DNA from: Alpinimonas psychrophila
Lineage (GTDB): Bacteria; Actinomycetota; Actinomycetes; Actinomycetales; Microbacteriaceae
Direction: 5' to 3'
DNA: 64,000 nucleotides
Assembly (NCBI RefSeq): GCF_014137865.1
Contig: NZ_JACGWU010000003.1
Location: 124,001-188,000 of the forward strand
The notes below the pieces were generated by a model that was given only the letters and a program-made list of their open reading frames with translations, did no database searches and was not told where the DNA came from. This document shows positions 30,150 through 64,000 of this stretch, piece by piece. A program made the position numbers and the translations under genes. Each line of letters opens with the position of its first letter. Position 1 is the stretch's first letter.

Positions 30150-30152
30150 ACG

Positions 30153-45958: not shown

Positions 45959-46091
45959 AACGCAAAAATCAATATTTGCTTTGAAGTTGCGCGTGTGGTG
46001 ACCTTTTTTAGGTTGCCGTCTTGCGGGAGAAGTTTCAGGTCGCTCTCGCGCGGAGTTTGGGCGATTACTACTCTTACGGGCTCTGATTGAA

Positions 46092-47227: not shown

Positions 47228-47255
47228 GTTCAGAATCTTAGCAATCGGGGGCTCA

Positions 47256-48233: not shown

Positions 48234-48327
48234 TCTCAGTTCTCTTGTGCAGCGACGAAAGTGCCGACGGGGAAAGGGGCTGTCCAATAGAGTCTATGAC
48301 GAGACCAGTGATAGAAAGACGGTATAC

Positions 48328-49104
48328 GTGAGCACACGCAATCCCAGAATATTGGTCGTTCTGCCGACCCTTGGGGATCGAATTGAGTCCCTTCGCGAGA
48401 CGTTGGCGACAATTGAGGCGCAGAAGCTTGACGTCAGCCTGCGTCTCGTTCTCGTCGCCCCCGTGGGGGCAACAGAGGCGCGGGGACTTGCCAGAGAATT
48501 CGGTGGGACGGTGATTGATGATCCCAAAACTGGTATTTCCGCGGCTATCAACTGCGGCATCATGGCACGACAGGATGAGGAATTTTACGCGTGGATGGGA
48601 GACGACGATCTCTTTAGAGCTGGAGGCTTGAAACGTCTCCAAGATCTTCTCGATGCATCACCCAAAGCAATAGTTTCTTACGGTGGCTGTGACTACATTG
48701 ATCCCAAGGGCAAGATTCTAGCCCGAAGCCGAGCGGGCAAACTCGCGCAATTCCTCCTTCCCTGGGGCCCCGATTTGATTCCCCACCCGGGGGCGATGAT
48801 TCGTCTCGATGACCTTGAAGTGATTGGAATGTTCGACACGTCACTCAAATACGCCATGGATCTCGATGCTTTCTTGAAGCTTCAAAAACGTGGAAAATTT
48901 GTGTCAACCAGATTTCCCGTATCGGCATTTCGGTGGCATCCGAATTCCCTCACTGTGGCAAATCGCCTCGACTCCAGTTTGGAGTCTGAAGCGGTTAAAA
49001 CGCGACACCTTCCTGCCGCCGTTCGACCGTTCAGATTTATCTGGCAATATCCGATTCGCTGGGCATCGGCTTTCGCTGCAACGCGAGTGAGCGGGAGAGC
49101 ATAG
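48328..49104 (+). CDS. GT2 glycosyltransferase
   Basis: A 258-residue GT-A enzyme from GTG 48328. PRILVVLPTLGDRIESLRETLATIEAQ opens the fold; GISAAINCGIMARQDEEFYAWMGDDDLF carries the metal-binding DDD. The rest, LIPHPGAMIRLDDLEVIGMFDTSLKYAMDLDAFLKL, resembles galactosyl/fucosyltransferases of capsule loci. Divergent from fcl and followed by gmd on the same strand, so a fucosyltransferase role is plausible but unproven. Confidence 0.78.
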   Translation: MSTRNPRILVVLPTLGDRIESLRETLATIEAQKLDVSLRLVLVAPVGATEARGLAREFGGTVIDDPKTGISAAINCGIMARQDEEFYAWMGDDDLFRAGGLKRLQDLLDASPKAIVSYGGCDYIDPKGKILARSRAGKLAQFLLPWGPDLIPHPGAMIRLDDLEVIGMFDTSLKYAMDLDAFLKLQKRGKFVSTRFPVSAFRWHPNSLTVANRLDSSLESEAVKTRHLPAAVRPFRFIWQYPIRWASAFAATRVSGRA

Positions 49105-49197
49105 AGTTCTCTGCGGTATCGTTGAGAAGCCGCATTCAGCCCCGGCAAAATGTTTGCCAGCTCTTTCTAGGACTTGGCGTGACAAGGAAGAGCAGAT

Positions 49198-50229
49198 ATG
49201 CCTGAGAACACGACAAAGCGAGCGTTAATTACCGGGATTACCGGCCAAGACGGCAGTTATCTTGCCGAATTGCTGCTGTCGAAAGGTTATGAAGTTCACG
49301 GGGTCATTCGCCGAGCGTCTACTTTTAATACCTCGCGAATTGACCACCTTTACAGTGACCCTCACTTGGCTGGAACGAAGCTATTTTTGCATTACGGCGA
49401 CTTGAGTGATGGCACGCGACTCGTTACGCTCCTCGATGCTGTAAAGCCTCATGAGGTCTACAATCTTGCCGCTCAGTCCCACGTTCGGGTTAGTTTTGAT
49501 GAGCCTGAGTTCACTGGAAATACAACGGGTCTCGGCTCAATTCGGCTTCTTGAGGCAATTAGGATGGCGGGCTTCAACTCAAAATTTTATCAGGCATCTA
49601 GCTCCGAGATGTTCGGCGCAACAGCGCCGCCTCAGAACGAAGAAACTGCTTTTTACCCTCGCTCCCCTTATGGTGCCGCCAAATTGTATTCATACTGGAT
49701 TACCCGCAATTATCGCGAGGGTTATGGGATGTTTGCCGTTAACGGCATTTTGTTCAACCATGAGTCTCCTCGACGCGGTGAAACTTTTGTCACACGCAAG
49801 ATTACGCGGGCTGTCGCGCGGATAAAGGCGGGGGTGCAGGATTCCCTTTTCATGGGGAATCTAGATGCGGTGCGTGACTGGGGGTACGCGCCCGAATACG
49901 TTGAAGCAATGTGGCTGATGTTGCAAGTCGATCAGCCGGATGATTACGTCGTGGCGACAGGCACGGACTATACCGTGAAGGATTTTCTGAGATTCTCCTT
50001 CGAGCACGCGGGGCTGGATTGGGAAAAGTATGTCAAATTTGACGAGCGCTATCTCCGGCCAACGGAGGTTGACGCTCTTGTCGGTGACGCGACGCGTGCC
50101 CGAACCAAGCTCGGGTGGACCCCCAAGATTATGACGCCTGAACTCGCGCGAATCATGGTCGATGCTGATGTCGAGGAACTTGCAGTCACGGGGAAACCTT
50201 GGATCGACAAGGTCGTCAAACACTCGTGA
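49198..50229 (+). CDS. gmd: GDP-mannose 4,6-dehydratase
   Basis: A 343-residue enzyme: [84 protein letters not shown] and [13 protein letters not shown] (YxxxK) are diagnostic of Gmd. It makes GDP-4-keto-6-deoxy-D-mannose for Fcl. RBS AAGGAAGAG precedes ATG 49198. GDP-mannose synthesis genes (manB, manC) are not in the window. An ABC exporter gene follows 23 bp downstream. Confidence 0.95.
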
Positions 50230-50252
50230 CAATTATTCGAAGGGTCCTCTAG

Positions 50253-52100
50253 ATGTTTGCGGCAATCGGCAGATCCTTGAGCTTCATGTCGAAGCGAGAA
50301 CGGATTGTGTTCTTCGTCCTTGTGGGGATTCGTGCATTGTCAGGCTTGCTTGACGTCTTGGGAATTGCGTTGATTGCACTACTCGCCGGGCTCGCTGCCA
50401 GCAATCTAGATTCTGCTCACCCTTTAGTGATTTTCGGTTACTCGCTTCCTGCCGTTTCGCAAGGAACTCTAGTAATTTTGGTTGTCTGCGTCTTGGCAGT
50501 TTTCGCCGTCAAAGCAGTTGTCGCCGTTTCTTTGGGACGAGCTATATCGACTTTCTTGGCGCGCATAGAAAGTGAGAAAGCTGTCGAAATTGCGCGTTAT
50601 TTGTTCACCGGAAACTTGGCAAAGCTTCAACGGCTAAACAAGGGGGAGATTGTTTGGTCGGTCATGGGGTCGACGTCTTTTGCATTCTCGGGATTGCTGT
50701 CGAGCCTTTCGACATTTTTTTCTGAAGGCATTTTGCTGATTTTGGTTGCCGGTACATTTTTTGCCGTCGATCCGATTGCCACAATTTATGTTTTTCTTTA
50801 CTTTGGCCTGATTATTGCAGCGATTCAACTTGTCGTTGGTCGCGCACTAAAGAAGGCGGGAAATGACTCGGCGAAGGGAAACATGCAAAGCATGGTCGTC
50901 ATTGACGATGTCCTCGGTGCATTTCGCGAAGTTACAATTTTCAACAAACAGGATTTTTTCGTAGAAAAATTTGGGGTCGCTCGTTCTCGGCTTGCCTCAA
51001 GTACGGGGACGCTTAACTTTCTCGCAGGGATGCCGCGCTACGTTGTTGAAACTGCATTGATGCTCGGCGTTGTCATCTTTGTGGGCTTTCAATTCGTGTC
51101 GGGGCAACTCGGCTCGGGGCTTGTTACTGTCGGGGTATTCCTGACCGGGGGAGTTCGCATTATGGCATCCTTGCTTCCGCTTCAGAACGCGGTCGCAATG
51201 GTGACAAACCAAATTGACCAGTCGCGAATGGCGCAAGATTTGCTCATGGAGGCGAGAGCCGAAGTCCGCACACCTTCACAATCGTCGGAAGCGCACGAAA
51301 CCTCCGAGGTGACTCAAGCGCAACCTAACTCAGCCAGTCCTCAAGTTGTTGGAGGGCTCGAGATTGTAATGGATGGGGTGACATTTAGCTATGCAGAGGC
51401 GAGTTCACCGGCGCTAAATGGTGTTTCTTTGCACATCACCAGTGGGCAACATGTAGCCGTTATCGGCCCGTCGGGTGCAGGTAAGACCACAATCGTTGAT
51501 GTCATTCTCGGGTTGATTGAGCCAACAACCGGGAGAGTTTCGATCGTCGGACATTCTGTTGGGTCAGGTTCACTTATCGAACAGGGTCTTGTCGCTTACG
51601 TTCCACAGAGCCCAGGAATCGTCTCAGGTTCGATAGCGGAAAATGTTGCACTGGGGACGAAGGTCGAAAATATTGATGAGCAGGCTGTCCTGCGCGCACT
51701 TGACGCGGCGAATTTATCAGAATTTGTCAACGGCCTTCCGGAGGGAATGTACACATCGGTCGGAAACCAGGCCGATTCCCTAAGTGGTGGCCAAATTCAG
51801 CGGCTGGGACTCGCGCGAGCATTGTATGGAAAACCGAGACTCATCGTATTGGACGAGGCAACGAGCGCCCTCGACGCGGGATCAGAGGCGTTCATTTCTT
51901 CGAGTTTGAAGAACCTTGGAAACGAAGTCACGGTAATCGTCATTGCCCATAGGCTTTCGACGGTTCAGCACTCCGATGTGGTCTACGTTGTTGAAAATGG
52001 CCGCATAACTTCCTCAGGGTCCTTTATGCATTTGAGGAACACGGTACCCATGGTTGCGGAATATGTGAAGTTGATGTCGTTCGAGGAAACGTCGGATTAG
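50253..52100 (+). CDS. ABC transporter, fused permease-ATPase (PglK/MsbA-like flippase)
   Basis: A 615-residue half-transporter. Residues about 15-320 contain six membrane helices; residues about 365-610 are the nucleotide-binding domain with Walker A IGPSGAGKTT, signature LSGGQIQRLGLARAL, Walker B LIVLDEATSALDAGS and the H-loop IAHRLSTVQ. The closest type is the lipid-linked oligosaccharide flippase PglK. With a separate Wzm/Wzt pair at 29-31 kb, the window encodes two glycan export routes. A Ser/Glu/Gln-rich linker (about 325-360) joins the domains. Stop overlaps the next, convergent gene. Confidence 0.9.
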   Translation: MFAAIGRSLSFMSKRERIVFFVLVGIRALSGLLDVLGIALIALLAGLAASNLDSAHPLVIFGYSLPAVSQGTLVILVVCVLAVFAVKAVVAVSLGRAISTFLARIESEKAVEIARYLFTGNLAKLQRLNKGEIVWSVMGSTSFAFSGLLSSLSTFFSEGILLILVAGTFFAVDPIATIYVFLYFGLIIAAIQLVVGRALKKAGNDSAKGNMQSMVVIDDVLGAFREVTIFNKQDFFVEKFGVARSRLASSTGTLNFLAGMPRYVVETALMLGVVIFVGFQFVSGQLGSGLVTVGVFLTGGVRIMASLLPLQNAVAMVTNQIDQSRMAQDLLMEARAEVRTPSQSSEAHETSEVTQAQPNSASPQVVGGLEIVMDGVTFSYAEASSPALNGVSLHITSGQHVAVIGPSGAGKTTIVDVILGLIEPTTGRVSIVGHSVGSGSLIEQGLVAYVPQSPGIVSGSIAENVALGTKVENIDEQAVLRALDAANLSEFVNGLPEGMYTSVGNQADSLSGGQIQRLGLARALYGKPRLIVLDEATSALDAGSEAFISSSLKNLGNEVTVIVIAHRLSTVQHSDVVYVVENGRITSSGSFMHLRNTVPMVAEYVKLMSFEETSD

Positions 52101-53101
52101 GCGTTGGGGCGGAGAGCATTTCGGGAAGCAACCGCTATCAAAATGAGCGAGCTGATCCATAGTCTGCTGACGAAACCAATGAGGCCGTTGCCGCGTTTCT
52201 TCGCTCGTTTTTGAAGTGAGACATCGTTTTGGAGTAGGCCATCCATTCTTGCTAACGCGTTGACGTAGGGCTGGTACACCCCGTTTCGAAGCACGGAGTT
52301 CATGGGTGAGCCATAGGTGAGCTGACTAGATGTAAACCACGGTCCGACTTTGCGGAGACCATGAAAATGGAAAAAGATCAACATCTGCCCATCTGCGAAC
52401 ACTGACCCGCCGAGTTGGGTTGTCCTATGCCGGCGCGTGTTCCACGGTGCGAGATTGAACCCGGCAGACTCGAGTATTTTAACACCGGGAAAATTTGGGA
52501 ACGAATTGAGGTAGCCTTGATCAGCGTACTTGTCGGCTTCGGGCTTATCTGAGCACCATTCCAATGTGCGATCTGAATACCAGTCGAGCACGGCTCTGCC
52601 CGCGTCGTCATCGCGAAAACCAACCCAGCCAACATTAAATCGACCATATTTTGCCAAGTTGGCTGCGACGTTGTCGGGATAACGATGTTCAATGATTCCG
52701 ACAGACTCGCTGCCTAGGTCATTAATGACAAGGTTGGGGGAAGAGAAAAAGTACAAGTCTGCGTCGAGGTAGATCGCAATGGAACCAGGCGTTTCCAGCT
52801 TTTCCATGACGAATTTGATGAGCAGGGGAGTGCATGTGAAGTAGTACTCCATGTGGGAGCGTTGCGACCGCAGAGGTGCAAGACGCGGCTCGCTCTCTTC
52901 GATTTCGGTGATGCTGATGATAAATACGTTTTCAGGTGCGTGTGCCTTTAGGTACTCGCTTGTAGTTTCGTCAAGAGCGAGGACATAAATGGGTGAATTG
53001 TCTCCATGTTCCCGGAGCGATTCAATAAGTACTAGTCCACGTGAGAGGTAGCCACTATCAAAATAGGTGCAGTACACCCTTTCATTTGCCGATTCCGTCA
53101 T
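52097..53101 (-). CDS. GT-A fold glycosyltransferase (GT8-like)
   Basis: A 334-residue protein from ATG 53101, 4 bases after the previous stop. RVYCTYFDSGYLSRGLVLIESLREHGDNSPIYVLALDETT and IAIYLDADLYFFSSP (DxD) place it in the nucleotide-diphospho-sugar transferase group related to GT8; RFNVGWVGFRDDDAGRAVLDWYSDRTLEWC, DQGYLNSFPNFPGVKIL and FFHFHGL (metal-binding His) agree. A C-terminal hydrophobic stretch (about 305-325) may tether it to the membrane. Sugar unknown. Operonic with the dehydrogenase upstream. Confidence 0.8.
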   Translation of the reverse strand: MTESANERVYCTYFDSGYLSRGLVLIESLREHGDNSPIYVLALDETTSEYLKAHAPENVFIISITEIEESEPRLAPLRSQRSHMEYYFTCTPLLIKFVMEKLETPGSIAIYLDADLYFFSSPNLVINDLGSESVGIIEHRYPDNVAANLAKYGRFNVGWVGFRDDDAGRAVLDWYSDRTLEWCSDKPEADKYADQGYLNSFPNFPGVKILESAGFNLAPWNTRRHRTTQLGGSVFADGQMLIFFHFHGLRKVGPWFTSSQLTYGSPMNSVLRNGVYQPYVNALARMDGLLQNDVSLQKRAKKRGNGLIGFVSRLWISSLILIAVASRNALRPNA

Positions 53102-53105
53102 AGCG

Positions 53106-54365
53106 CTACAGGCGTTCGATGTTAGAGCCGACGAACTTGCCCGTTGTGTCAAGGACCGCCGTGGCGCAGGCGCCGATTTCTGAAGCAGCGTCGATGAATT
53201 CCTTGTGAGCTTGAACCACGATGGCGATGTCGGAGCCGGACAGTGCGGCTGTCAGGTTTGGCTCTCGGGGAACGGTGAGGCCGTTGACTACCCAGGACGG
53301 AACGTGCGGATCAAAATACGAAAGTGTCGCTCCCATGTCAAGCAGACGTTGCGCTAAAGGGACAGCTGGTGATTCACGCTTGTCGGAAATGTTTGACTTG
53401 TAGGTAACACCCAAGAGGAGAACTTTCGACCCCTTTACGGCCTTTCCCTGGTTGTTGAGGAGGTCTTGAGCGCGACGGGCGACATAAGGAGGCATGCCGT
53501 GGTTTATTTCTTCGGCAAGTTCCACAAATCGGAAGGGCCTTTCAAGCTCGGCCCGAACCTTATACGCCAAGTAGTTGGGGTCAATTGGAATGCAATGGCC
53601 ACCGACCCCAGCGCTAGGGGAGAACGATTGAAAACCAAACGGCTTTGTCTTGGCCAATTCGACGACATTCCAGATGTCGATGCCCATTGCGTGACAGAAC
53701 TGAGCCATTTCGTTCACTAACGCAATATTGATGTGTCGGTACGTATTCTCCAGCAGTTTTGCGGTCTCGGCTTCGCGCGTGCCCTTGGCGCGAACCACCT
53801 CGTTGATAAATTTCTCGTAGAACTCAACGGCCTTATCACCGCACACCTCAGTCACCCCGCCGACAATTTTGGGGGTGTTCCGAATTCCATAGATTGAGTT
53901 GCCGGGATCAATGCGTTCGGGTGAGAATGCCAAGAAGATATTTTGCCCGATAACCCGACCGGTCGTCTCAAGCAGGGGCTTTAGAATCTCATCTGTTGTT
54001 CCCGGGTACGTTGTCGATTCAAGGACAACAAGGAGATCGTTGTGAGCGTTCGCGGCGATGTCCCGTGACGCCCCGATGACAGCCCCTAGGTCAGGTTGAC
54101 CCGAAGCATCCAAAGGAGTGGGAACGCAGATAACAACGACATCGGTTGAGAAAATGCAGGAAGGGTCTGTGGTCGCAGAAAAACCCAAGCCAAGGAGTCG
54201 TGAAATATCTTGTGAATCTAGATCATCGATGTGGCTCACGCCGGAGTTGAGATTCTCGACAATCGTTGCGTTGCGGTCGAGCCCGGTGACAGTGAGGCCG
54301 GCTTCTGAAGCTGCCACAGCGAGGGGAAGCCCAACGTAGCCAAGCCCGACAATGACAACTTTCAA
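53106..54365 (-). CDS. Nucleotide-sugar 6-dehydrogenase (WecC/UDP-ManNAcA type)
   Basis: A 419-residue dehydrogenase that oxidises a UDP-sugar C6 to a uronic acid. It has VIVGLGYVGLPLAVAASEAGLTVTGLDRN, VVICVPTPLDASGQPDL, STTYPGTT, FSPERIDPGNSIYGIRNTPKIVGG, the catalytic GVGGHCIPIDPNYLAYK (Cys) and KVLLLGVTYKSNISDKRESPA. The IPIDPNYL pattern points to N-acetylated sugars (ManNAc or GlcNAc) rather than UDP-glucose, but the substrate cannot be fixed from sequence. It introduces a negative charge into the glycan. Confidence 0.88.
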   Translation of the reverse strand: MKVVIVGLGYVGLPLAVAASEAGLTVTGLDRNATIVENLNSGVSHIDDLDSQDISRLLGLGFSATTDPSCIFSTDVVVICVPTPLDASGQPDLGAVIGASRDIAANAHNDLLVVLESTTYPGTTDEILKPLLETTGRVIGQNIFLAFSPERIDPGNSIYGIRNTPKIVGGVTEVCGDKAVEFYEKFINEVVRAKGTREAETAKLLENTYRHINIALVNEMAQFCHAMGIDIWNVVELAKTKPFGFQSFSPSAGVGGHCIPIDPNYLAYKVRAELERPFRFVELAEEINHGMPPYVARRAQDLLNNQGKAVKGSKVLLLGVTYKSNISDKRESPAVPLAQRLLDMGATLSYFDPHVPSWVVNGLTVPREPNLTAALSGSDIAIVVQAHKEFIDAASEIGACATAVLDTTGKFVGSNIERL

Positions 54366-54456
54366 TCCATTATCCTTAGGTTAGCCGGGTGCTCAAGAAG
54401 TAGGTTGTCTTTGAGAGCTAGCCGAGATTCAAGTCTATACAGATGGAGTTCGTTCA

Positions 54457-55413
54457 TTGACCGAGACACCCGTGGTCGTCATCGCCTACAACCGACCGGA
54501 TAAGGTTCGTCGGTTGATTACTCGGTTGAGCACATTGAAGCCTCCCACGATAATTTTTGCGGTCGACGGACCTAAGCCAGGTCGGCAAGAGGACGAACTC
54601 AAAGTTCAAGAAGTTCGTTCTCTCGTAGAGCTCATCAATTGGACCGACCGGGTGGAAACGCGTTTTCAACCAACAAATCTTGGGCTCCGGACCGCCGTCA
54701 CAGATGTCGTCAGCCATGCTGTTTCATTGCACGGACAGGCAATCATCATGGAGGAGGACACACTTCCGGGCGCAAATTGGTTTCCTTACGCTCGAGAAAT
54801 GCTTGAACGTCATCGTGATAACAGTCGAATCGAACATATCTCTGGATACAACCTTGTGCCGCAAAGATTTCTCAGCAATGGTTTGGAGGGTAGTCGCCTA
54901 ACGCGTTACCCCGAGTCAATTGCATGGGCGACGTGGGACCGCGCCTGGGATAAGTTTGATGGTTCACTCGACTGGGCGCTCAACGCCAGTGTTGCTGAAC
55001 TCGCGAGGATTGTGGGTTCTCGAGCTGGTGCCCTGCGCTGGAAGCAAAATTTTGCTGACGCAGAAGCAAATCGAATTTCAACATGGGCGTATCGATGGAT
55101 TGCCAGTTTGTGGTCGCGTGACTCCTTTGTGCTTTCTCCGAACCAGAATCTTGTGACATACGCTGGGTACGATGCAGGAACCCACACACTCATGAAGGCG
55201 CCGTGGAGTGAACTTAGCCTTTATGAGGGCGACCTCAGGCAAAGCCTTAGTGGCACAGCTGACCTCGACCCACGGGCCGACGAGTGGGTTGGAAAGCGTG
55301 TTTTTGCCGAGAATCCATTTGGTGTCGCGCGAGGTGTGGCAATTACGGCAGCCCTGGCGGCGCGAAAGATGAATCGAAATCGTCGTGTTCTTGCACAGCG
55401 CGGTCTCTCCTAG
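54457..55413 (+). CDS. GT-A glycosyltransferase, GNT-I/HlpA-like
   Basis: A 318-residue protein starting at TTG 54457. PVVVIAYNRPDKVRRLITRLSTLKPPTIIFAVDGPKPGRQED opens a GT-A fold; NLGLRTAVTDVVSHAVSLHGQAIIMEEDTLPGANWFPYAREML contains the acidic EED metal site, and ISGYNLV, SIAWATWDRAWDKFDG match the group of glycosyltransferases related to GNT-I. It is the only plus-strand gene between 52.1 and 59.6 kb and its stop overlaps its convergent neighbour at CTAG. Confidence 0.75.
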   Translation: MTETPVVVIAYNRPDKVRRLITRLSTLKPPTIIFAVDGPKPGRQEDELKVQEVRSLVELINWTDRVETRFQPTNLGLRTAVTDVVSHAVSLHGQAIIMEEDTLPGANWFPYAREMLERHRDNSRIEHISGYNLVPQRFLSNGLEGSRLTRYPESIAWATWDRAWDKFDGSLDWALNASVAELARIVGSRAGALRWKQNFADAEANRISTWAYRWIASLWSRDSFVLSPNQNLVTYAGYDAGTHTLMKAPWSELSLYEGDLRQSLSGTADLDPRADEWVGKRVFAENPFGVARGVAITAALAARKMNRNRRVLAQRGLS

Positions 55414-57221
55414 TTCGAGCTCGTAATCCCCAGTGCGATGCGAATACGTCCGGCCAGAGAATTGGGCTCCACGATTTCTTTCCACATACCTTCGCAGAGG
55501 CCAGTGAGGTGCTCCTGGAGCAGAGTCGACTCCTCTTGTTCGGAGCCGGTGAGTTTCGGCCAGACCGTCGATTCTGCCAGGCTGTTTCTCTTGTGAGACA
55601 TGACATCGAAGAAGACGTCCTTGCTTAGTCGAGACGTTTCGCGGTTCCTGAGGGCAAGTCGTTCCCTGACGAGTGGTCCGTAAGAAATGATTACAAACAC
55701 CATTTTTCGCCAAAGCCACAGCCGGAATCCAGGTATTTTGGGGCGAATAGCAATGGGTTTTGCGTTCACAGCACCAGAAAAATCGCTCGCAATCCTGGTA
55801 AACAAGAAGGCATACCAGCGGAAAGCCTTGCGGACATTCTCGAGCGACCATCCTTCCTCAAGAGCAGCATCCAGCTTGATTACGAACTCTTCTGACGTGA
55901 AAGCTGTTCGGTTTATTTCTTGAGGGTATGTGAAGAAGTCGCGATTCGCGGGGGCGACGACGGGTATTCCAAAGGCGGCCAGCTCAGCACCTACAGACGA
56001 ACGATACCCAAGAACGACATCAAGAATCTGCATGAGATCGTAGAGGCTGATGTTATCTGTGGGTAGATTTACGATGACGTTGGGAGGGGCGGTTTCGATG
56101 AGCTCCATGACACGTTCTACAACAGGGGCCACAACGCTCTCTCGTTTATTGGGAAACATTCTCGGGTGGAGGCGGAGTACGAACTTGACTTCCGGTCGAG
56201 TTCTCGCATATTGAAAAACAAATTCAATCCATTCAAATTGATTTTCAAAAAGATTTGGACGGTGGGTAGTATCAGGTAGCACGTTTGCAAGTTGTGCGGC
56301 GTTTAGCTCGTCCTCGCTGGACATGGGAATGAGGACGACCTTGGCTTCTGCAGGTATGCCGAACCGTTCTCGGAGATGCGACGGTTTACTCGCTTGAAAC
56401 GCACTTGAATAAGCGAATGCACTACTTGCTTCCAGGAGGCCTTCGAAGTGTGACGCCACGAGGGAAATTTCCGAAGATCCAACGGGGGTTTCCCTATATT
56501 CCTGCCAGCTGTGGGATCCGAAAACCTGGAATTGAGTCTGACTTTCCAAGAACATCGACATCGTTTCACCACGGAGTGTGATGTGGCTGCCTCCTTGGAG
56601 GGTGTACGTCGGGATACCTCTCAATTCTGCTACGGCAAGAAAAGCATGGTTGACCCCATAAAGCCTGTTATAGGTGACAACGTAGTCGGGGCGTTCGAGG
56701 TCAAGAATGCGTTCGGCCGCCATTAAGGTCGCAGCACTGTTGCGCAATTGCTCGCGATAGATTGGGAAGAGCTCCTCGGGAATGTTGGTCCCCATAATTT
56801 TGTAGTTGAGCAGAAACTCGTAGGCCGCGTAGCGACCGATCGGCACGTTGCGCAGAACGAGAGTGGGCCAATTCTCTAGAGTCGAAGATTGAACAAGGAT
56901 ATCAAGTTCTTCGACGTCGCCAGGAAGCAGGAAATCGTCGGTAATGAGACTCCGGAAATTGAATTTGCTATCGACAAGTTCTCTTCGTCGAAAGCAGGCG
57001 CTGCACACTTGTCGGCGCTTGTGAAAGGTGTCCGCCGCCGTCAGCCCTGCGGCCGACATGGCCACACAAAAGCTATCGTAGAGTCCGCCACACCGAACGG
57101 TGACAATGTCAATACCTCGTTCGTGGAGACCCGCGGCAACCAAGGCTTCGGGGAAAGAATGCTCCCAGATGTTTGAAAAAGGGGAAAAGAAAAGTGCTTT
57201 CACGAGTGGTAAAGCTATCAC
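55410..57221 (-). CDS. Large GT-B-like capsule-type protein, function unknown
   Basis: A 603-residue soluble protein starting at GTG 57221 (GTG 57203 is an alternative). VKALFFSPFSNIWEHSFPEALVAAGLHERGIDIVTVRCGG resembles the first Rossmann half of GT-B enzymes; three clustered Cys (CSACFRRRE and RCGG) follow. The second half has VVLIPMSSEDELNA, FVLRLHPRMFPNKRE and GYRSSVGAELAAFGIPVVAPANRDFF, similar to capsule polysaccharide synthesis (KpsS/LipB-like) proteins. A glycosyltransferase or glycan-priming role is inferred. I do not recognise a specific family. Confidence 0.72.
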   Translation of the reverse strand: MIALPLVKALFFSPFSNIWEHSFPEALVAAGLHERGIDIVTVRCGGLYDSFCVAMSAAGLTAADTFHKRRQVCSACFRRRELVDSKFNFRSLITDDFLLPGDVEELDILVQSSTLENWPTLVLRNVPIGRYAAYEFLLNYKIMGTNIPEELFPIYREQLRNSAATLMAAERILDLERPDYVVTYNRLYGVNHAFLAVAELRGIPTYTLQGGSHITLRGETMSMFLESQTQFQVFGSHSWQEYRETPVGSSEISLVASHFEGLLEASSAFAYSSAFQASKPSHLRERFGIPAEAKVVLIPMSSEDELNAAQLANVLPDTTHRPNLFENQFEWIEFVFQYARTRPEVKFVLRLHPRMFPNKRESVVAPVVERVMELIETAPPNVIVNLPTDNISLYDLMQILDVVLGYRSSVGAELAAFGIPVVAPANRDFFTYPQEINRTAFTSEEFVIKLDAALEEGWSLENVRKAFRWYAFLFTRIASDFSGAVNAKPIAIRPKIPGFRLWLWRKMVFVIISYGPLVRERLALRNRETSRLSKDVFFDVMSHKRNSLAESTVWPKLTGSEQEESTLLQEHLTGLCEGMWKEIVEPNSLAGRIRIALGITSSN

Positions 57222-57368
57222 AGGAGCCTCGGGCTATTTATCGACGGCTGAAATGGGCGTTTTGAAAAATCAAAGTTGCTAGTGTCTCTCCTTACCTTGC
57301 ACCGGCCAGCTTCCGAGGAGATTTGCGTCACGTGCAATAAGGCAATGGCAATAAAACTTTATGAACTT

Positions 57369-58655
57369 TCATTGTTCGAAGCGTTCAACGAGCGCGTGGT
57401 TTTCCAACGTGACAAAAACTGAACGAACGACTTTTGATGAAACTCCACTCAAGTCAGAAATTGCGATGACATCATGATTTCCGTCCGCAAAGGTGAGGAC
57501 ATTTTTCAAATCTTTCACGATGCCTGCACTCTTCTTTGTGCTGATAGTCGGGTACAGGCCCCTTTTACCCAGTTGTGGTTCCCCCAGTGTGGTGCTCGCC
57601 CAGCGCCAATTTCCCTCGGCGAGTTCGATGGCATCCATCATCATGGAGAGCCCACCCTCTAAGCCCTCAGGAGTGACTACGGTGAGGTCATCTAACGACG
57701 TATGGTACTCGGGGTACTCGGCATATTTGGAACGCATAAGGGACGCAATGGGCAGGTCGACTCCGGGCCAGCACCACTGCCGCTCGTCCGAACCTCTGTC
57801 CAAGAAGGAGTACTCAATGTAGTCGAGCTGGCGGTCTTGGAGTATCTTCTTTGAAATTCGATCGGAGAGTGTATTGCCTAAGCGAGATGGTACGAAGGAA
57901 TATGTGCGATTGTCGCCAATGCAGGTGAGAACCCAGCCGGCCTTTACGTTTTTTTTCAAGTTCTCGAGATTTTGCGAAATATAGATGATCGACCCAATAG
58001 TTTCTGGGATCAAGAGAATTCGATACGTGAAGTGACGAGATTCCAACGATTCGAGCCACCGAGAAAGCGCAATGGAAACCGCAGGGCCAGATAATTCATT
58101 GTTTGCCATTGAAGGATGGCAAACATAGGTGCTGATGAGAATTTCCTCGGATGAAAAACCAGGAATCACGAGTTCCCCGTATGTGAGGTTGCCATCGAAG
58201 AGTTCGGAATCAATTACAACGTGAAATGGCCCACTTCCAAGGTCGTCTCTCTGAATTTGGCTCAGGCAGAAGCCCCAGTTCTCAGCGTAGTAAGACGTCA
58301 CGTATGGAATAGCCGAAGGTTGGTCTGGGAGTGTGTGCAAGTGAGATTCGAGTTCTGCAAGCGTCATAGTCATGTTCACTGGTGTCGAGTAGCCAACTAC
58401 GTGGAGGTTCGACTCGGCGAAATCGATGACGCGCAAACCCTCTATTGTTTCGACGTAGGCCTCTCGAATACGCCACTCCTTGGGCACGATCCAGTCGGCT
58501 ACTGTGGTCCCCGTCGGGACCTCCTTTATTTCGAGTGATGGCTGCAAGGCGCCGAAATACTTCAGTGTTTCTCGAACACCGTCTCCCGAAAGGCTCCGAC
58601 AAATTGGCATCAAATCAGCGACCCATCCGTGCATCGTTAGCCCCGAATCAATCAT
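57369..58655 (-). CDS. DUF4910 aminopeptidase-like protein with C-terminal winged helix
   Basis: A 428-residue protein. It opens with DLMPICRSLSGDGVRETLKYF, typical of DUF4910 proteins, and the M28-like core shows possible zinc ligands His180/Glu187 in YVCHPSMANNELSG, Glu218 in LIPETIGS, Asp290/Glu291 in GSDERQWCWPG and His318 in EYHTSLDD. Residues about 365-428 form a winged-helix-like tail (ISDLSGVSSKVVRSVFVTLENHALVERF). DUF4910 genes recur in glycan loci; the substrate may be an N-acylated sugar or glycopeptide, but that is inference. ATG overlaps the preceding stop by 4 bases. Confidence 0.82.
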   Translation of the reverse strand: MIDSGLTMHGWVADLMPICRSLSGDGVRETLKYFGALQPSLEIKEVPTGTTVADWIVPKEWRIREAYVETIEGLRVIDFAESNLHVVGYSTPVNMTMTLAELESHLHTLPDQPSAIPYVTSYYAENWGFCLSQIQRDDLGSGPFHVVIDSELFDGNLTYGELVIPGFSSEEILISTYVCHPSMANNELSGPAVSIALSRWLESLESRHFTYRILLIPETIGSIIYISQNLENLKKNVKAGWVLTCIGDNRTYSFVPSRLGNTLSDRISKKILQDRQLDYIEYSFLDRGSDERQWCWPGVDLPIASLMRSKYAEYPEYHTSLDDLTVVTPEGLEGGLSMMMDAIELAEGNWRWASTTLGEPQLGKRGLYPTISTKKSAGIVKDLKNVLTFADGNHDVIAISDLSGVSSKVVRSVFVTLENHALVERFEQ

Positions 58656-59497
58656 GCGCTTTCCTGTTCTATTGTCGGTTCAAAATCTGAAAGGAAGAAT
58701 GGCCTGCCAAGCCTCTGAAGGTGCTGCTCCGCCCAAACCCGAGACTTTTCGGTCAACATGTAAAAGGGGTCCTTGCGAAGATTCTCTGTCCATGATTCCA
58801 CGAGAGCCCGGGCGGGCGCCCAAAAGACATTTTGGCCTGCTTCAATGCGTCTGATTATCCCCGCCTGCACGGCGTCCTGCTCGAGTCTTGCCATGTCGTA
58901 CAAAATGACTCCACCGAGGGGTCGCACATGGTACCTAATGTGCATTTCTTGAGCGTCTAAGGAGGGGTCATTCTCCGCTAGCCCGCGAAATGATTTCGTA
59001 TAACGGTATGCGGGTCCGCCCGATAAGGTCTCCGCTAGGTGATGAATGGTGGCAGACCCGTAATCAGCACCGTACCAAAGAACCGTGCCATCTCCCTCGA
59101 CAAGTTGGCCAAAATCAGAATGCGGCCCGAAGGGGTCGGAGAAATCCGATCCTGCGAGGCGGAACTCAGGCCTGATACCGATACCGGCGAAGTTGAATGC
59201 CGGGCTGAGAGTCCGCCACTCAGAATGTCTTGTCCGGAAGTGTTCGTTAAGCGCTCCCACTTGAACAATAGAAGAACGAGCGCTGTACGTCTTTCCGGAG
59301 AGAAAATCGTAGTTAAACGCTGCGAACCAAATGTCACGGTTATCAGAAATCGTGTTGACGACATTGACGTGTTCTTCGAGGAGGTTCTCTCGGCCTCGAA
59401 TACCTTTAACAAGCGCGTGCGTCCGGGACACATCTGAGTGAACCATCACGGGACCATCCGGTGCATCATTGGGTAACATGAGAGCGTGAAATGCCAT
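58652..59497 (-). CDS. AAC(3)-family N-acetyltransferase
   Basis: A 281-residue protein of the antibiotic_NAT (AAC(3)) family: VMVHSDVSRTHALVKG near the N-terminus, VGALNEHFRTRHSEWRTLSPAFNFAGIG, GPHSDFGQLVEGDGTVLWYGADYGSATIHHLAE (His and Asp/Glu of the active site region). Members of this family in surface-glycan loci acetylate amino sugars rather than drugs. It is co-translated with the DUF4910 gene and lies next to the GNAT and pseudaminic-acid genes, so an amino-sugar N-acylation role is likely. Confidence 0.82.
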   Translation of the reverse strand: MAFHALMLPNDAPDGPVMVHSDVSRTHALVKGIRGRENLLEEHVNVVNTISDNRDIWFAAFNYDFLSGKTYSARSSIVQVGALNEHFRTRHSEWRTLSPAFNFAGIGIRPEFRLAGSDFSDPFGPHSDFGQLVEGDGTVLWYGADYGSATIHHLAETLSGGPAYRYTKSFRGLAENDPSLDAQEMHIRYHVRPLGGVILYDMARLEQDAVQAGIIRRIEAGQNVFWAPARALVESWTENLRKDPFYMLTEKSRVWAEQHLQRLGRPFFLSDFEPTIEQESA

Positions 59498-59634
59498 AGT
59501 TAGCGATGCATCCTTCGAGAGTAGGACAAGCTATCCTTCACAGCTCCCCTAATGCAAAGGATATCACTGGTCGACTCGGTGAAGATTTGGCGCCCACCCG
59601 GGAACTATTTCACCACACTTTGAGAGGTGCCTCG

Positions 59635-60150
59635 ATGGCGGACGGAAAGGCGCAATTAGCGAATCGAATGACGGTCCGGGAGGCAAATTGGGCGGACTGT
59701 GAAACTTTGTTCATGTGGCGGAATGATCCTTCGACTCGTTCAGCGTCTTTAGAGACGGGGGAAGTTTCCTGGGAATCTCACGGCTCATGGTTTCGTGCCG
59801 CGTTGAGCTCGTCAACCCGCCACATCTTTATTGTTGAGGCTACTTTTGCAGAGTCCATTTCTTCAGTAGGAATGTGTCGCTTTGACGTCGAAAATGAAAC
59901 GGCAGAGGTGAGCATTAATTTGAACCCCTCCTTGCGGGGAAAGGGGCTATCGCTTGAGGTTCTCAGCGCTGCACTTGATTATTTTCGAAACGGGAGTCGA
60001 TCCGAGACAACAATCATTGCACGCGTCCGCGTCGATAATCCCGCGAGCCTTCGGCTCTTTGAAAGAGCCGGATTTGAGAGAACTCACGAAGACGCCAGTG
60101 TTGCAATGTTTGAGCTAGCAAAGTCCAAAAATCCTGACGGTCCCTCGTAA
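59635..60150 (+). CDS. GNAT acetyltransferase, PseH-like
   Basis: A 171-residue GNAT protein from ATG 59635 (GAGAGG upstream; the longer frame to 59506 is not conserved). REANWADCETLFMWRNDPSTRSASLETGEVSWESHGSWF is the pattern of PseH-type enzymes that acetylate the 4-amino group of UDP-4-amino-4,6-dideoxy sugars; the acetyl-CoA loop is NPSLRGKGLSLEVL, and NPASLRLFERAGFERT is the typical C-terminal helix. In the pseudaminic-acid pathway it would follow PseC. It is oppositely oriented to the pse genes. Confidence 0.8.
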   Translation: MADGKAQLANRMTVREANWADCETLFMWRNDPSTRSASLETGEVSWESHGSWFRAALSSSTRHIFIVEATFAESISSVGMCRFDVENETAEVSINLNPSLRGKGLSLEVLSAALDYFRNGSRSETTIIARVRVDNPASLRLFERAGFERTHEDASVAMFELAKSKNPDGPS

Positions 60151-60198
60151 GATTCAGTGACGAAAAGGTCTAACCGAATACTCACGTACAAATTGGAA

Positions 60199-60252
60199 AG
60201 GGAAATTACCTCGTTGGCCGAGGCACAAGGTACAGTGTCGGTGATTTTCCCT
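60199..60252. terminator. Nested hairpin between convergent GNAT and KAS III genes
   Basis: An outer pair AGGGAAA (60199-60205) / TTTCCCT (60246-60252) encloses a perfect inner stem CCTCG (60209-60213) / CGAGG (60219-60223). It lies in the 109-bp gap between two convergent genes and could terminate transcription from both sides. No long T run is present. Confidence 0.4.
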
Positions 60253-60259
60253 ACAGCGG

Positions 60260-61264
60260 CTAGCCCCTTGACTGTCGGATGGTTAGACCCGCAAGCGTGA
60301 GCCCCACACCAAAAGCCAGAAGAAAAAGGTACCGACCTTCTGAGCCAAACAGTTCCGTCTCCGTCATTCCTGCAGTTTCAGCGAGAATCTGGAAAGGAAT
60401 CGCGCTACCCACAACGTTTCCATACTCTCGCGAAACGAACTGAGCATCTTGGTCAAGTGACAGTGACTTGCTCACGGCGTCGACGACGGCGCGCGAACCC
60501 TGGTGAATATACCAACTGTCTATTTCATCATGCCCAAGTCCCGCTCTAGTAACCGCGCCGGCAACTGCAGATTTCACGTGTTTAACAACAAAATTGAAAA
60601 CACCGGCACCATTCATCTCGAGCTCACCGAAGGGAAAATGTTCGTTTCCCCGAGTGACTGTCAGATCATCGGCATGATTGCCTTCAGAAATAACTGTCGA
60701 TGACAAGATTTCCCATTTGCGGGATGGGTGACGAATGCCGGGAATGGTGAGAGCATCGGCGGTCAAAATGATTGCGCTTGCTCCGTCGGAGAAAAGAGGG
60801 GAAACTCTGAGATTTGAATCCTCATAAAGCTTTGAGTAAGTATCCGAGATCACAATCAGAATTGCCTTGGACGTTCCGGAGGCTATGAGAGAGTTGCCGA
60901 GAATAACGGATCGAACGAATCCTGTGCAGGCATCATTGATATCGAAGACGAGCGTATGGGGAGCCAACATGAGTTCGCCGTGCAAGAGGTGCCCGTTGCC
61001 GGGGGCTGCACGATCGCCTGTTGACGTGATGTAAATTACCGTGTCCACGTTTGCTCTGAGCCAATCAGTATCTACGTTGGCCAGCGCGGCTCGCGCCAGA
61101 TCCAATCCAGTTTGTTCTTTCGTAACGTGAAAAACGGTCTCAAAACCAGTTCTGGTGAGAAATCCTTCGCGAACTTCCCCGTTTTCTGCTACTAGCAGGG
61201 CTACATCTCGTTTAGTGCTTCCAAGGGCACTGCCGACCGGATGAATCCAGAAGCTACTTGACAA
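60260..61264 (-). CDS. KAS III (FabH-like) beta-ketoacyl-ACP synthase or acyltransferase
   Basis: A 334-residue thiolase-fold enzyme starting at TTG 61264, overlapping the ACP gene by 11 bases. The catalytic triad is intact: Cys113 (NDACTGFV), His254 (YIHQGSR) and Asn283 (YGNVVGSAIP). FabH enzymes condense acetyl-CoA with malonyl-ACP to acetoacetyl-ACP; other members (CerJ-type) transfer acyl groups onto sugars. Its fusion-like pairing with an ACP inside a pseudaminic-acid locus, away from fatty-acid genes, suggests a dedicated acyl supply for glycan decoration. Confidence 0.85.
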   Translation of the reverse strand: MSSSFWIHPVGSALGSTKRDVALLVAENGEVREGFLTRTGFETVFHVTKEQTGLDLARAALANVDTDWLRANVDTVIYITSTGDRAAPGNGHLLHGELMLAPHTLVFDINDACTGFVRSVILGNSLIASGTSKAILIVISDTYSKLYEDSNLRVSPLFSDGASAIILTADALTIPGIRHPSRKWEILSSTVISEGNHADDLTVTRGNEHFPFGELEMNGAGVFNFVVKHVKSAVAGAVTRAGLGHDEIDSWYIHQGSRAVVDAVSKSLSLDQDAQFVSREYGNVVGSAIPFQILAETAGMTETELFGSEGRYLFLLAFGVGLTLAGLTIRQSRG

Positions 61265-61475
61265 GGTTGTTCTTTTTCATGATTTCGAGCAGGGTTTCAA
61301 AGTCCGAAAAATTATCCAATTCGTCGAGGGAGGCAACTTTGTCACCGAATTCGTCATGGAGCGCCGAGATAATTTCCAGCTTGTCCAGAGAGTCCCATTG
61401 TGGATTCTCCGGTTCAGTCTCTGGGTCCTTCTGAAGTGCGAGGACCGCCAGCAATCGAAGTTCCGATTCATTCAT
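61254..61475 (-). CDS. Acyl carrier protein
   Basis: A 73-residue ACP: three-helix arrangement with the phosphopantetheine Ser in WDSLDKLEIISAL (DSL motif) at the start of helix II and an acidic surface (DEFGDKVASLDELDNFSDFETLLEIMKKNN). Shorter than the fatty-acid AcpP and without its usual hydrophobic N-terminus. It overlaps the KAS III gene and follows pseI by about 30 bp, so all belong to one transcript. Confidence 0.88.
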   Translation of the reverse strand: MNESELRLLAVLALQKDPETEPENPQWDSLDKLEIISALHDEFGDKVASLDELDNFSDFETLLEIMKKNNLVK

Positions 61476-61505
61476 AGGTTTCTCCTTTTTGTTTGACTTC
61501 GTAAT

Positions 61506-62540
61506 TTAAAACAGGTCCCAGGTGATTGGTGTTCCTGCCGGTGCGTCGGTGTTGAAAATGCGCCCCATAGTCCGATCGATCTCTTTGGGAGGTAGACCTC
61601 CACCCGGACGGACGGAGCGTACGTTCAACGGCGATGCAACGTCTCCAGCGCGAACATCGGCGGAAACATATAGTGAAGGGCGAAGGCGCAGAGATTCGTT
61701 TTCTGCTGAGGTTGCCCATGCATCTGCGGAGCCCAAGGCCCGAACGGCCATGTCGCACGCCTCAACTAGTTGTGCGAGTTCTGCTGGTTCGAGGGAGAAG
61801 GCACTATCGACACCGCCATCCGAGCGGCGAAGAGTCACGTGCTTCTCTATAACGGATGCGCCAAGGGCCGCTGCCGCCACGGATACTCCGAGACCCATCG
61901 TGTGATCAGAGAGTCCAACTTTTGTGCCAAAAATCTGAGCCATTGCCGGCATTCGAAGAAGATTTGCATCATCCGGTTGCGCGGGATATGAACTGGTGCA
62001 CGCCAGCAAGGTAATGTCAGTGCATCCGCCAGCCTTCGCCGCAGCGACGGCTTCTGCAGCTTCGGCTATTGAAGCGGTTCCCACGGAGATAATCATGGGC
62101 TTGCCCGTCTGGGCAACCTGAGTGATCAGCGGTAAATCAACAATCTCGAGTGAGGCAATCTTGTAGACGGGAACGTCGAGAGTTTCTAGGAAGTCGACAG
62201 CAGTGTCGTCAAAAGGCGTGCTGAAGGCAATCATTCCCAGGTCGCGAGCAAGGTTAAAAATGGGCTCATGCCAAGCCCACGGAGTGTGGGCCTCTTCGTA
62301 GAGGTCATAGAGCTTGCGAGATGCCCAGAGTTCATGCCCGTCACTGACTCGAAATGCAGGAGAATCGACGTTCAGCGTGATGGTGTCCGCAGTGTACGTC
62401 TGGATTTTCACCGCATGCGCGCCCGTGTCAGCTATGGCCCGCACTATCTCCAGTGCGCGAGGGAGTGATCCATTGTGATTGCCGGAAATCTCAGCAACAA
62501 TCAGAGGGCCCTTTTCGGGGCCGAGGGGGAGGCTACTCAT
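61506..62540 (-). CDS. pseI: Pseudaminic acid synthase
   Basis: A 344-residue NeuB-family enzyme condensing a 2,4-diacetamido-hexose with PEP. N-terminal PLIVAEISGNHNGSLPRALEIVRAIADTGAHAVKIQTYTADT; MIAFSTPFDDTAVDFLE; ACTSSYPAQPDDANL; GLSDHTMGLGVSVAAAALGASVIEKHVTLRRSDGGVDSAFSLEP; and a C-terminal SAF-like domain (SLYVSADVRAGD...NVRSVRPGGGLPP). The VDSAFSLEP ending favours PseI over sialic-acid NeuB (GPDH pattern). ATG 62540 has AGGAGA upstream. PseF and PseG, the two other pathway enzymes, are not visible in the window. Confidence 0.9.
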   Translation of the reverse strand: MSSLPLGPEKGPLIVAEISGNHNGSLPRALEIVRAIADTGAHAVKIQTYTADTITLNVDSPAFRVSDGHELWASRKLYDLYEEAHTPWAWHEPIFNLARDLGMIAFSTPFDDTAVDFLETLDVPVYKIASLEIVDLPLITQVAQTGKPMIISVGTASIAEAAEAVAAAKAGGCTDITLLACTSSYPAQPDDANLLRMPAMAQIFGTKVGLSDHTMGLGVSVAAAALGASVIEKHVTLRRSDGGVDSAFSLEPAELAQLVEACDMAVRALGSADAWATSAENESLRLRPSLYVSADVRAGDVASPLNVRSVRPGGGLPPKEIDRTMGRIFNTDAPAGTPITWDLF

Positions 62541-62571
62541 TGCGGTTCTCCTATCGTGGCGGACAAAAAAG

Positions 62572-63699
62572 TTATGCCAAGGCCTTGCGTAAGACGTCGA
62601 TAACAATCGATTGCTGATCGTGACTCAAATCCGCGTACATGGGTAACGAAATTTCTTGTTCATAATATGCTTCGGCGACGGGGCACATGCCGCGCTTGTA
62701 CCCGAGGTCCTCAAAAACGGGATGCCAATAGGCCGGCAGGTAGTTCACCTGCACCAGTACCCCCGCGTTGCGCATGAAATCAAAAACTTCACGCCGCCGC
62801 CCTTCTGGAATGCGAACGGGGTAGAGGTGCCACATTGGATCGACATAGTCCCGTTTGGTCGGCAAAATAAGGCCGGCCACGTCAGAGAGTTCTTCCTTAT
62901 AACGTTCAAAGATCGAGGTTCGACGAGCTTTAAACTCCGCAATTCGCTTGACTTGGTTCAGTCCAAGGGCGCTTAGAACATCAGGAAGGCGGTAGTTCAG
63001 GCCAATCTCGTGAACTTCTTGATGCCACGGCCCTTCATCGGGGTAACGCTGTTCTTCTTTATTACGAACAAGGCCATGGGAACGAAAACGGCGGGCACGT
63101 TCGACCAACGCGGCATCGGGGGAGACGACCGCCCCGCCCTCGGCCGTTGTCATGTTCTTCGTTGGAAAAAAAGAAAATGCCGTGATGTCGGCCAAAGATC
63201 CCACAGGGCGATTTTTGTACGTCGACGCGATTGAATGTGCCGCATCCTCAAGAAAATATGCACCGGTCGAATGAGCTAAAGAGGCCAGTTCGTCTGCATC
63301 AACCGGGTGGCCCGCGTAGTCGACGCCAGCGATGACCTTGGTGCGGGGTGTAATCAGCGCTGCAACAGAGCCGGGATCGATGTTCCCTGTGTCGGCAGCA
63401 ACATCTGCGAAGTGAACCTTTACCCCCAGGGCCATTGCCGTGGCCGCAGTCGCTACAAAGGTCAGCGGGGACGTGATTACTTCGTCACCGTTCGACACAT
63501 TGAGAGCCGCGTAGGCGCAGTGCAGTGCAGCGGTTCCGGAGGAAACGACAGTCGAGTCAGGCGTCCCCGACAAAGTAGCGATTGCGTCTTCGAAGGCAGT
63601 AACGACTGGTCCCATAGTGAGCCAGTCGGTCGTCATGACGGAGACCACGGCGTCAATATCTCCTTGAGAAATCGACTGCCGACCATAGGGGATAGTCAT
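62572..63699 (-). CDS. pseC: UDP-4-amino-4,6-dideoxy-N-acetyl-beta-L-altrosamine transaminase
   Basis: A 375-residue PLP aminotransferase of the DegT/DnrJ/EryC1 family. IPYGRQSISQGDIDAVVSVMTTDWLTMGP opens it; VVSSGTAALHCAY, SPLTFVATATA-like region, DYAGHPVD, EDAAHSIAST and FSFFPTKNMTTAEGGAVV (PLP Lys181) follow, then RSHGLVR. This matches PseC, which aminates the PseB product. It starts one base after the pseB stop, so pseB-pseC are co-translated and lead into pseI. Confidence 0.92.
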   Translation of the reverse strand: MTIPYGRQSISQGDIDAVVSVMTTDWLTMGPVVTAFEDAIATLSGTPDSTVVSSGTAALHCAYAALNVSNGDEVITSPLTFVATAATAMALGVKVHFADVAADTGNIDPGSVAALITPRTKVIAGVDYAGHPVDADELASLAHSTGAYFLEDAAHSIASTYKNRPVGSLADITAFSFFPTKNMTTAEGGAVVSPDAALVERARRFRSHGLVRNKEEQRYPDEGPWHQEVHEIGLNYRLPDVLSALGLNQVKRIAEFKARRTSIFERYKEELSDVAGLILPTKRDYVDPMWHLYPVRIPEGRRREVFDFMRNAGVLVQVNYLPAYWHPVFEDLGYKRGMCPVAEAYYEQEISLPMYADLSHDQQSIVIDVLRKALA

Positions 63700-64000
63700 C
63701 TATGCAAATTTTTCGATGAGGTCGCGGAGCGCCTCGACATCGAGCCACTGGTCGTTGGTGTCTGAACGGTAGGCAAAGCCGTCTGGAACTGACTGACCAA
63801 CGGGGGCGACAAATCCCCACTCGGCAATCGTGGGAAGGATGACGTAGCGATCTCCCAAGAGCAAAGTACGGCGACTGTCATCCTGAGAAATCATTTCTTC
63901 GTGAAGCTTTTCTCCGGGGCGAATCTCCACCGAGTGAGTTTTTGAACCGGGGGCGACAGCTTCGACGAGGTCGAGGATGCGCATGCTAGGGATGCGAGGA
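63700..64000 (-). CDS. pseB: UDP-N-acetylglucosamine 4,6-dehydratase (inverting), C-terminal part
   Basis: The frame stays open to the right edge of the window (upstream residues read PRIPS before MRILDLVEA), so this is the last 100 or so residues of a longer gene. RPGEKLHEEMISQDDSRRTLLLGDRYVIL and the ending GFAYRSDTNDQWL are the characteristic C-terminus of PseB, the inverting 4,6-dehydratase that starts pseudaminic-acid synthesis. It overlaps nothing downstream; pseC follows directly. Confidence 0.9.
   Translation of the reverse strand, partial: PRIPSMRILDLVEAVAPGSKTHSVEIRPGEKLHEEMISQDDSRRTLLLGDRYVILPTIAEWGFVAPVGQSVPDGFAYRSDTNDQWLDVEALRDLIEKFA

Follow-up and report, generated by a model that had tools for sequence, protein, structure and literature searches.

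The window studied here is the whole 64,000-nucleotide stretch of Alpinimonas psychrophila DNA at bases 124001–188000 of contig C3, in a genome of 2.24 Mb and 12 contigs. Its right-hand end carries genes for the synthesis of pseudaminic acid (Pse) together with genes for a KAS III enzyme, an acyl carrier protein (ACP), an AAC(3)-fold acyltransferase, and a DUF4910 protein, which probably act together to replace an N-acyl group of the sugar. The genes of this region are the following.

57369–58655, minus strand: DUF4910/DUF2172/HTH_47 metallo-aminopeptidase-like protein (PF16254, 322.8 bits; also PF09940 and PF16221)
58652–59497, minus strand: AAC(3)-fold (Antibiotic_NAT) N-acyltransferase (PF02522, 72.7 bits; cut-off, 25)
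59506–60150, plus strand: PseH-like GNAT (best NCBIfam model PseH TIGR03585, 45.9 bits, under the cut-off of 93.1)
60260–61264, minus strand: KAS III (PF08545, 57.1 bits; cut-off, 24)
61254–61475, minus strand: ACP of 73 amino acids with a WDSL site (ACP profile built without it, E 4e-7)
61506–62606, minus strand: pseI, pseudaminic acid synthase (TIGR03586, 443.5 bits; cut-off, 340.25)
62572–63699, minus strand: pseC, aminotransferase (TIGR03588, 411 bits; cut-off, 423.5)
63700–63999, minus strand: pseB, last 99 codons inside the window (whole gene, L002:3700–4686)

The first-pass annotation of this DNA described a minus-strand run of pseB, pseC, pseI, ACP, and KAS III genes with an AAC(3)-family and a PseH-like acyltransferase beside it, and this layout holds: the run is present and tightly packed, and both acyltransferase frames are found with Pfam or NCBIfam support (the GNAT below the PseH cut-off). 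The ACP gene begins 30 bases past pseI and its frame shares 11 bases with that of KAS III, so that pseB-pseC-pseI-ACP-KAS III has an operon-like arrangement. The partner overlooked in that annotation is the DUF4910 gene, whose first 4 bases are also the last 4 of the AAC(3) frame. Read whole in the contig, PseB has 328 amino acids and scores 491.8 bits on TIGR03589 (cut-off, 407.75); PseC scores slightly below its cut-off. The true start of pseI is likely at 62540, an alternative start with a good ribosome site, and the start of the GNAT frame may sit further in. Past the window end, divergent from the pseB run, lie pseG, a second GNAT gene, and genes for an aldo/keto reductase, a cytidylyltransferase, and a class III aminotransferase. 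A search for pseF and pseG beyond 64 kb had been suggested; pseG was found there (156.2 bits; curated cut-off, 153.55), as was the cytidylyltransferase (PF02348, 90.8 bits), but the latter is read as SpsF-type, the best score for a PseF-type cytidine monophosphate (CMP)-Pse synthetase in the pse region past the window being 27.9 bits against a cut-off of 205.7.

The catalytic features first noticed in the pair are intact, Cys113, His254, and Asn283 of KAS III aligning with the FabH triad in the FabH order, and the carrier serine of the ACP lying in its WDSL motif. The pair is also dedicated, as had been claimed, since the genome has separate housekeeping fab copies. PF08545 matches three places in the genome, namely the window, a fab operon, and a third under the cut-off. 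The match in the operon, on contig C1 (91.7 bits), belongs to frames that we read as fabD-fabH-acpP-fabF, a gene order in keeping with an actinobacterium. The window KAS III is thus not the only copy; being the sole copy, and grouping with FabH, had been named as what would refute the first interpretation. The third KAS-related protein (L006:1024–2163, minus strand; 379 residues) has HAGG at the His motif and adjoins a frame read as polynucleotide phosphorylase. The window enzyme shares with housekeeping FabH its family and triad, but lies outside the fab operon, has HQGS where FabH has HQAN, and is 22–23% identical to the genome's own FabH; the separate fab genes and a fabH model score of 116.7 bits, under the cut-off of 292.1, rule it out as the housekeeping enzyme.

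The HQGS motif occurs in seven of the 25 KAS III rows compared, the window's included, whereas the FabH rows have HQAN. Each HQGS row adjoins an ACP, in or beside amino-sugar genes, with the exception of L106, whose 4.6-kb contig shows only an AAC(3)-KAS III-ACP-DUF4910 set. A YGN motif is also common to the HQGS rows, but it was not kept as a marker of the group, being found in further KAS III sequences that include a housekeeping one. In both L215 and L214, a protein of 188–200 residues (L215:9024–9590 and L214:8803–9405) directly precedes the HQGS-type KAS III, and the KAS III-ACP pair of L214 is accompanied by a DegT-type aminotransferase. Where HQ is usual, the KAS III-like frame L197:12007 reads HSSD. 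An order-wide search with the window KAS III at 1e-50 returned its own genome alone (1 of 396), and a phylum-wide search at 1e-27 returned two of 396, its own and a locus read as plsX-fabH; a scan of genome contigs with KAS III alone gave 18 pattern matches, none of them confirmed. With the Thiofilum KAS III as query at 1e-45, four of 175 genomes of its class matched, including Thiofilum. The window ACP had no match in the Pfam search; the ACP profile built without it matches only that frame in the window, and the ACP itself as query found no second match in the genome at E 0.001.

The AlphaFold2 model of the AAC(3)-fold protein (predicted local distance difference test score (pLDDT), 91.4) matches AAC(3) and FrbF structures in Foldseek with E values down to 1.9e-12, and His153 and Glu156, conserved across the family, are kept. 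The protein shares 42% identity with its relative in L076 across 260 aligned positions; a phylum-wide search at 1e-15 matched two of 396 genomes, its own and that of L209, a locus with an adenylation domain, an ACP, and DUF4910. The DUF4910 protein matches PDB entry 3k9t (E 2.6e-101) and, across 421 aligned positions, shares 42% identity with its counterpart in a pse locus from Campylobacterales. Relatives at >50% identity occur in four plasmid records. An Agrobacterium plasmid locus combines a pse set with AAC(3) and DUF4910, and in a plasmid locus of S. chiapasense AAC(3) adjoins DUF4910. In plasmid loci of Maritalea and Sinorhizobium RAC02, AAC(3) is fused to a part annotated HAD-IIIC or bearing a sub-threshold FkbH_N match, respectively, and a MaoC-ketoreductase protein and then DUF4910 are encoded after the fusion. 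AAC(3)-FkbH-like fusions with the same two followers recur in L012, L067, L087, L109, L122, L123, L148, and L154, which suggests that such loci make a processed acyl chain. DUF4910 is also found in four plasmid sugar clusters (L069–L072) with genes for a methyltransferase, a short-chain dehydrogenase/reductase or other oxidoreductase, and a deoxythymidine diphosphate (dTDP)-4-dehydrorhamnose 3,5-epimerase, three of the four also having a PIG-L deacetylase; its role may therefore extend beyond Pse.

The N5 of Pse is the acetamido nitrogen of N-acetylglucosamine (GlcNAc), while N7 is an amine acylated by PseH. Since the N5 acetyl group arrives with GlcNAc, it is replaceable only after removal, and a new N5 group would need a hydrolase and a second acyltransferase, roles that fit DUF4910 and AAC(3). 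We propose, with a probability of about 0.6, that an acyl-swapping cassette has been added to the Pse pathway, in which DUF4910 removes, KAS III/ACP supplies, and AAC(3) transfers an acyl group. From the known roles of their families, PseB, PseC, the PseH-like GNAT, PseG, and PseI would yield Pse5Ac7Ac, with the GNAT serving as the N-acetyltransferase for the later N7, and the SpsF-type enzyme would give the CMP-activated sugar. DUF4910, as an amide hydrolase, would take off the GlcNAc-derived N5 acetyl. KAS III would condense an acyl starter, most simply acetyl-coenzyme A (CoA), with a malonyl unit to form a β-ketoacyl group on the dedicated ACP, as predicted from its Cys-His-Asn triad, and the product group would be acetoacetyl, or 3-hydroxybutyryl given the action of a reductase. 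The AAC(3)-fold protein would be an acyl-ACP:amine transferase that takes this group off the ACP and attaches it to the freed amine, and the modified sugar would enter an exported surface polymer.

The association of these genes was surveyed in 80 loci, the best 80 of 576 DUF4910 relatives from public genomes of many phyla, using profiles built in this analysis to detect the gene families. The query alignment (A1) joined the DUF4910 protein of the window to four encoded on plasmids, all five having AAC(3) adjoining or one gene away. AAC(3) was detected in 57 loci, ACP in 43, nonulosonate synthase in 41, an adenylation domain in 29, FkbH in 17, and KAS III in 3. An ACP accompanies AAC(3) in 43 of 57 loci and is found in none of the 23 without AAC(3) (Fisher p 8.9e-11), and any acyl loader (FkbH, adenylation domain, or KAS III) is found in 46 of 57 versus 1 of 23 (p 1.3e-10), p values that serve only as a guide because the loci are kin by descent and the query was biased to AAC(3) neighbors. 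The nonulosonate synthase is no different between the two sets (28/57 and 13/23). The loaders of the AAC(3) loci comprise adenylation domains (28), FkbH (17), and KAS III (3); in 14 of the 80, the locus spans less than 12 kb, so that an absence there may be due to truncation. In an AAC(3) tree of 60 rows made by a quick method (five of 58 AAC(3) frames, shorter than 180 residues, excluded), the loader labels are clustered, yet change 18 times (shuffled mean, 30.7). The window protein groups with three adenylation-domain loci and one FkbH locus (Shimodaira–Hasegawa-like approximate likelihood-ratio test (SH-aLRT), 100), and the KAS III loci of Thiofilum/L106 and of Campylobacterales fall elsewhere. 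Such variation of loaders among close AAC(3) relatives fits a shared AAC(3) plus ACP stage whose supply is exchangeable.

In Campylobacterales, DUF4910 gives 29 matches in 26 of 199 genomes. A second sample, for which DUF4910 was the sole search criterion, comprised ten of these 29 matches, selected on contig and score; AAC(3) and ACP lie near DUF4910 in all ten, a loader in nine, and KAS III in four. The pse loci L196 and L197 contain several KAS III-ACP pairs; each encodes two or three KAS III enzymes and three proteins of AAC(3) type. L195 and L199 have the order pseB-pseC-DUF4910-AAC(3)-ACP-FkbH-KAS III-ACP. We take the order of Cj1293–Cj1304 in Campylobacter jejuni to be the same as in L195 and L199, and Cj1295, from its place after pseB-pseC, to be the DUF4910 gene. 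The C. jejuni flagellin locus would thus resemble the window in holding pseB, pseC, DUF4910, AAC(3)-type, ACP, and KAS III genes together, as seen in the Campylobacterales genomes; it differs in that it serves to decorate flagellin, and L195 and L199 also carry FkbH, unlike the window, for which a search of the stretches L002, L003, and L066 gave no match to an FkbH for a glyceroyl group.

The function of Cj1295, called aminopeptidase-like and located right after Cj1293-Cj1294, has been tied to 2,3-di-O-methylglyceroyl on N5 of Pse, and its authors proposed cleavage of the C5 acetamido group as its role; Cj1296/7 is listed as an N-acetyltransferase (PMC3068675; this and the other papers cited are represented by excerpts). 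The gene cj1302 has an fkbH domain (PMC7099621). DUF4910 occurs in the window with AAC(3), ACP, and pse genes, the company expected of Cj1295-type remodeling. The first-pass annotation knew of no described pathway with its exact combination of genes; this claim did not survive, as the combination is also present in four Campylobacterales loci and in Thiofilum, and Cj1295 has been published for an unusual N-acyl Pse. A further parallel is the Pseudomonas syringae island vioS/acp/vioR/vioB, in which a KAS III, an ACP, a reductase, and an acyltransferase serve the N-3-hydroxybutyryl group of viosamine; vioR and vioM deletions are described there, and that of vioB earlier (PMC3927599). This island works on a dTDP-sugar and has the reductase VioR, and the excerpt names neither AAC(3) nor DUF4910.

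What is already known, then, is unusual N-acyl Pse and the need for Cj1295; apparently new is a wider, swappable module, for DUF4910, AAC(3), and ACP as one module were not found described in the open-access literature searched. We consider the odds about even that ACP-dependent N-reacylation of nonulosonates by DUF4910, AAC(3), and a swappable loader is pan-bacterial, the window being an independently recruited KAS III version. Unusual nonulosonate N-acyl groups are known chemically, the genes that install them often being unassigned; the candidate gene for the Pse glyceroyl group of Tannerella, for instance, "remains elusive" (PMC6120980). If the module is real, the loader gene beside DUF4910-AAC(3) would predict the acyl class, and a job would be given to the widespread DUF4910 proteins and to AAC(3)-type proteins annotated after aminoglycoside acetyltransferases.

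Several observations weigh against the acyl-swapping proposal. The count of 57 in 80 is biased upward by a query built from AAC(3)-linked DUF4910 proteins. A comparable stand-alone KAS III is found in only two of the 57 AAC(3) loci (L106 and L115), that of L127 lying inside a 1304-residue frame on the opposite strand. Fourteen of the 57 have no detected ACP and nine have neither ACP nor loader, so that some AAC(3) members are probably acyl-CoA users; six such rows form one group (99) in the tree, which perhaps uses acyl-CoA. In alignment A2 (42 sequences, the window's and those of 41 of the 57 loci), there are seven conserved columns (55, 59, 71, 72, 78, 102, and 161) at which the window AAC(3) differs from the residue held by most members. 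No ketoreductase adjoins the window KAS III, and the aldo/keto reductase past the window belongs to a trio also found in loci without KAS III (L121 and L133); acetoacetyl is therefore as likely as 3-hydroxybutyryl.

The placement of the window KAS III also differs between trees. The phylogeny called for in the first-pass annotation was carried out as three trees with clade tests (the long rows L006, L197_12007, and L127 being excluded from two of the trees, those with supports of 74/45 and 99/100), and the window protein sits on a long branch. One tree places it with FabH and Streptomyces/Klebsiella forms (support, 74/45), whereas the two others place it outside a supported FabH-side group (97/94 and 99/100). 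Neither a grouping with FabH (p 0.054 and 0.106) nor an HQGS group, about as good as the free tree (p 0.508 and 0.556), was rejected. A KAS III structure model from three sequences was poor (pLDDT 52) and was left unused. Finally, pseI occurs in 26 of 396 genomes of the order, and none of the 25 other pseI loci has a match to KAS III, ACP, DUF4910, or AAC(3) in single-sequence searches at 1e-5 over ~6–10 kb on each side, which distant forms may escape. The cassette thus appears to be a sporadic addition. In L058, from a member of the same family, the pse genes are laid out in the same way, with the GNAT beside pseI, and the cassette is absent, which makes it look inserted.

Among the alternatives, the one that survives best, although still unlikely, is that the PseH-like GNAT puts the KAS III/ACP-derived acyl group on N7, and AAC(3)-DUF4910 serve another amino sugar of the cluster. 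Pse of Shigella boydii type 7 carries (R)-3-hydroxybutanoyl at N7, attributed by prediction to the pathway's own acyltransferase, Psb5, acting before the synthase (PMC3628348); this pathway shares with our proposal a Pse with a 3-hydroxybutanoyl amide, and differs in the site acylated, the excerpt naming neither KAS III nor ACP. The GNAT gene moreover lies between those of KAS III and AAC(3), DUF4910 is also found on plasmid stretches without an annotated pse gene, and L215, with the order PseF-PseG-unknown-KAS III-ACP-acyltransferase-PseI, has an acyltransferase read from its sequence as left-handed-helix type and no detected AAC(3) or DUF4910. Against these points, the GNAT beside pseI in L058 is of the same type (43% identity over 153 aligned positions) in a locus without KAS III, ACP, AAC(3), or DUF4910 matches, ACPs track AAC(3) in the 80 loci, and Thiofilum has KAS III-ACP-AAC(3)-DUF4910 in a single run, followed by pseC-pseF-pseG, a weak GNAT (17.5 bits), and pseI.

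It is improbable that AAC(3) uses acetyl-CoA for re-acetylation or antibiotic resistance. Its fold is that of aminoglycoside acetyltransferases, but it scores 45.3 bits on the AAC_3 equivalog model against a cut-off of 270, on which ground aminoglycoside resistance was rejected; its gene also overlaps DUF4910, and AAC(3) proteins of this type are linked to ACPs. That the KAS III/ACP pair stands beside pseI by chance and makes a small lipid or polyketide with no bearing on the sugar is similarly improbable: such pairs do occur in other kinds of cluster, e.g., on Deinococcus and Streptomyces plasmids, but only 30 bases separate pseI from the ACP start, and Thiofilum, L215, L214, B. glumae, and Campylobacterales have such pairs in amino-sugar loci as well. 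Least probable of all is acylation of the sugar by KAS III itself, for although some KAS III-like enzymes are acyltransferases, CerJ and ChlB3 sharing the KAS III fold and ChlB3 an ACP partner (PMC9573744), and the window enzyme is far from FabH, the Cys-His-Asp triad of CerJ/ChlB3 differs from the window's Cys-His-Asn (Asn283) and an acyltransferase of the AAC(3) fold is encoded close by, on which two grounds direct transfer was rejected as the leading reading. Of the two roles first suggested for KAS III/ACP, acyl supply for the nonulosonate accordingly stands as the simplest, and direct CerJ-type transfer is disfavored.

As for the fate of the acyl-swapped sugar, the window holds several glycosyltransferase genes and the following exporter genes.

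29121–31352, plus strand: Wzm/Wzt-like ABC exporter pair (PF01061; PF00005; Wzt_C 29.4 bits, just below the cut-off of 30.4)

No flagellin was found in the genome, and the sugar is therefore more likely to end up in a surface polymer than on flagellin. The polymer may plausibly belong to the wall or capsule, and we propose the Wzm/Wzt-like pair as its candidate export route.

Elsewhere in the window, a 1041-residue frame (42840–45965, minus strand) has only weak Pfam matches. The G+C content is ~50–56% over the glycan cluster (window 46000–64000) versus 60.5% in L002:12513–19240 past the cluster, and it is possible that the cluster was gained horizontally. The trio of genes past the window for aldo/keto reductase, SpsF-type cytidylyltransferase, and class III aminotransferase (L002:6344–9268, contig C3) recurs in the pse loci L093, L113, L121, L133, and L152. 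This trio might make an 8-amino nonulosonate, a kind of sugar reported for Flexibacter maritimus (PMC3210612).

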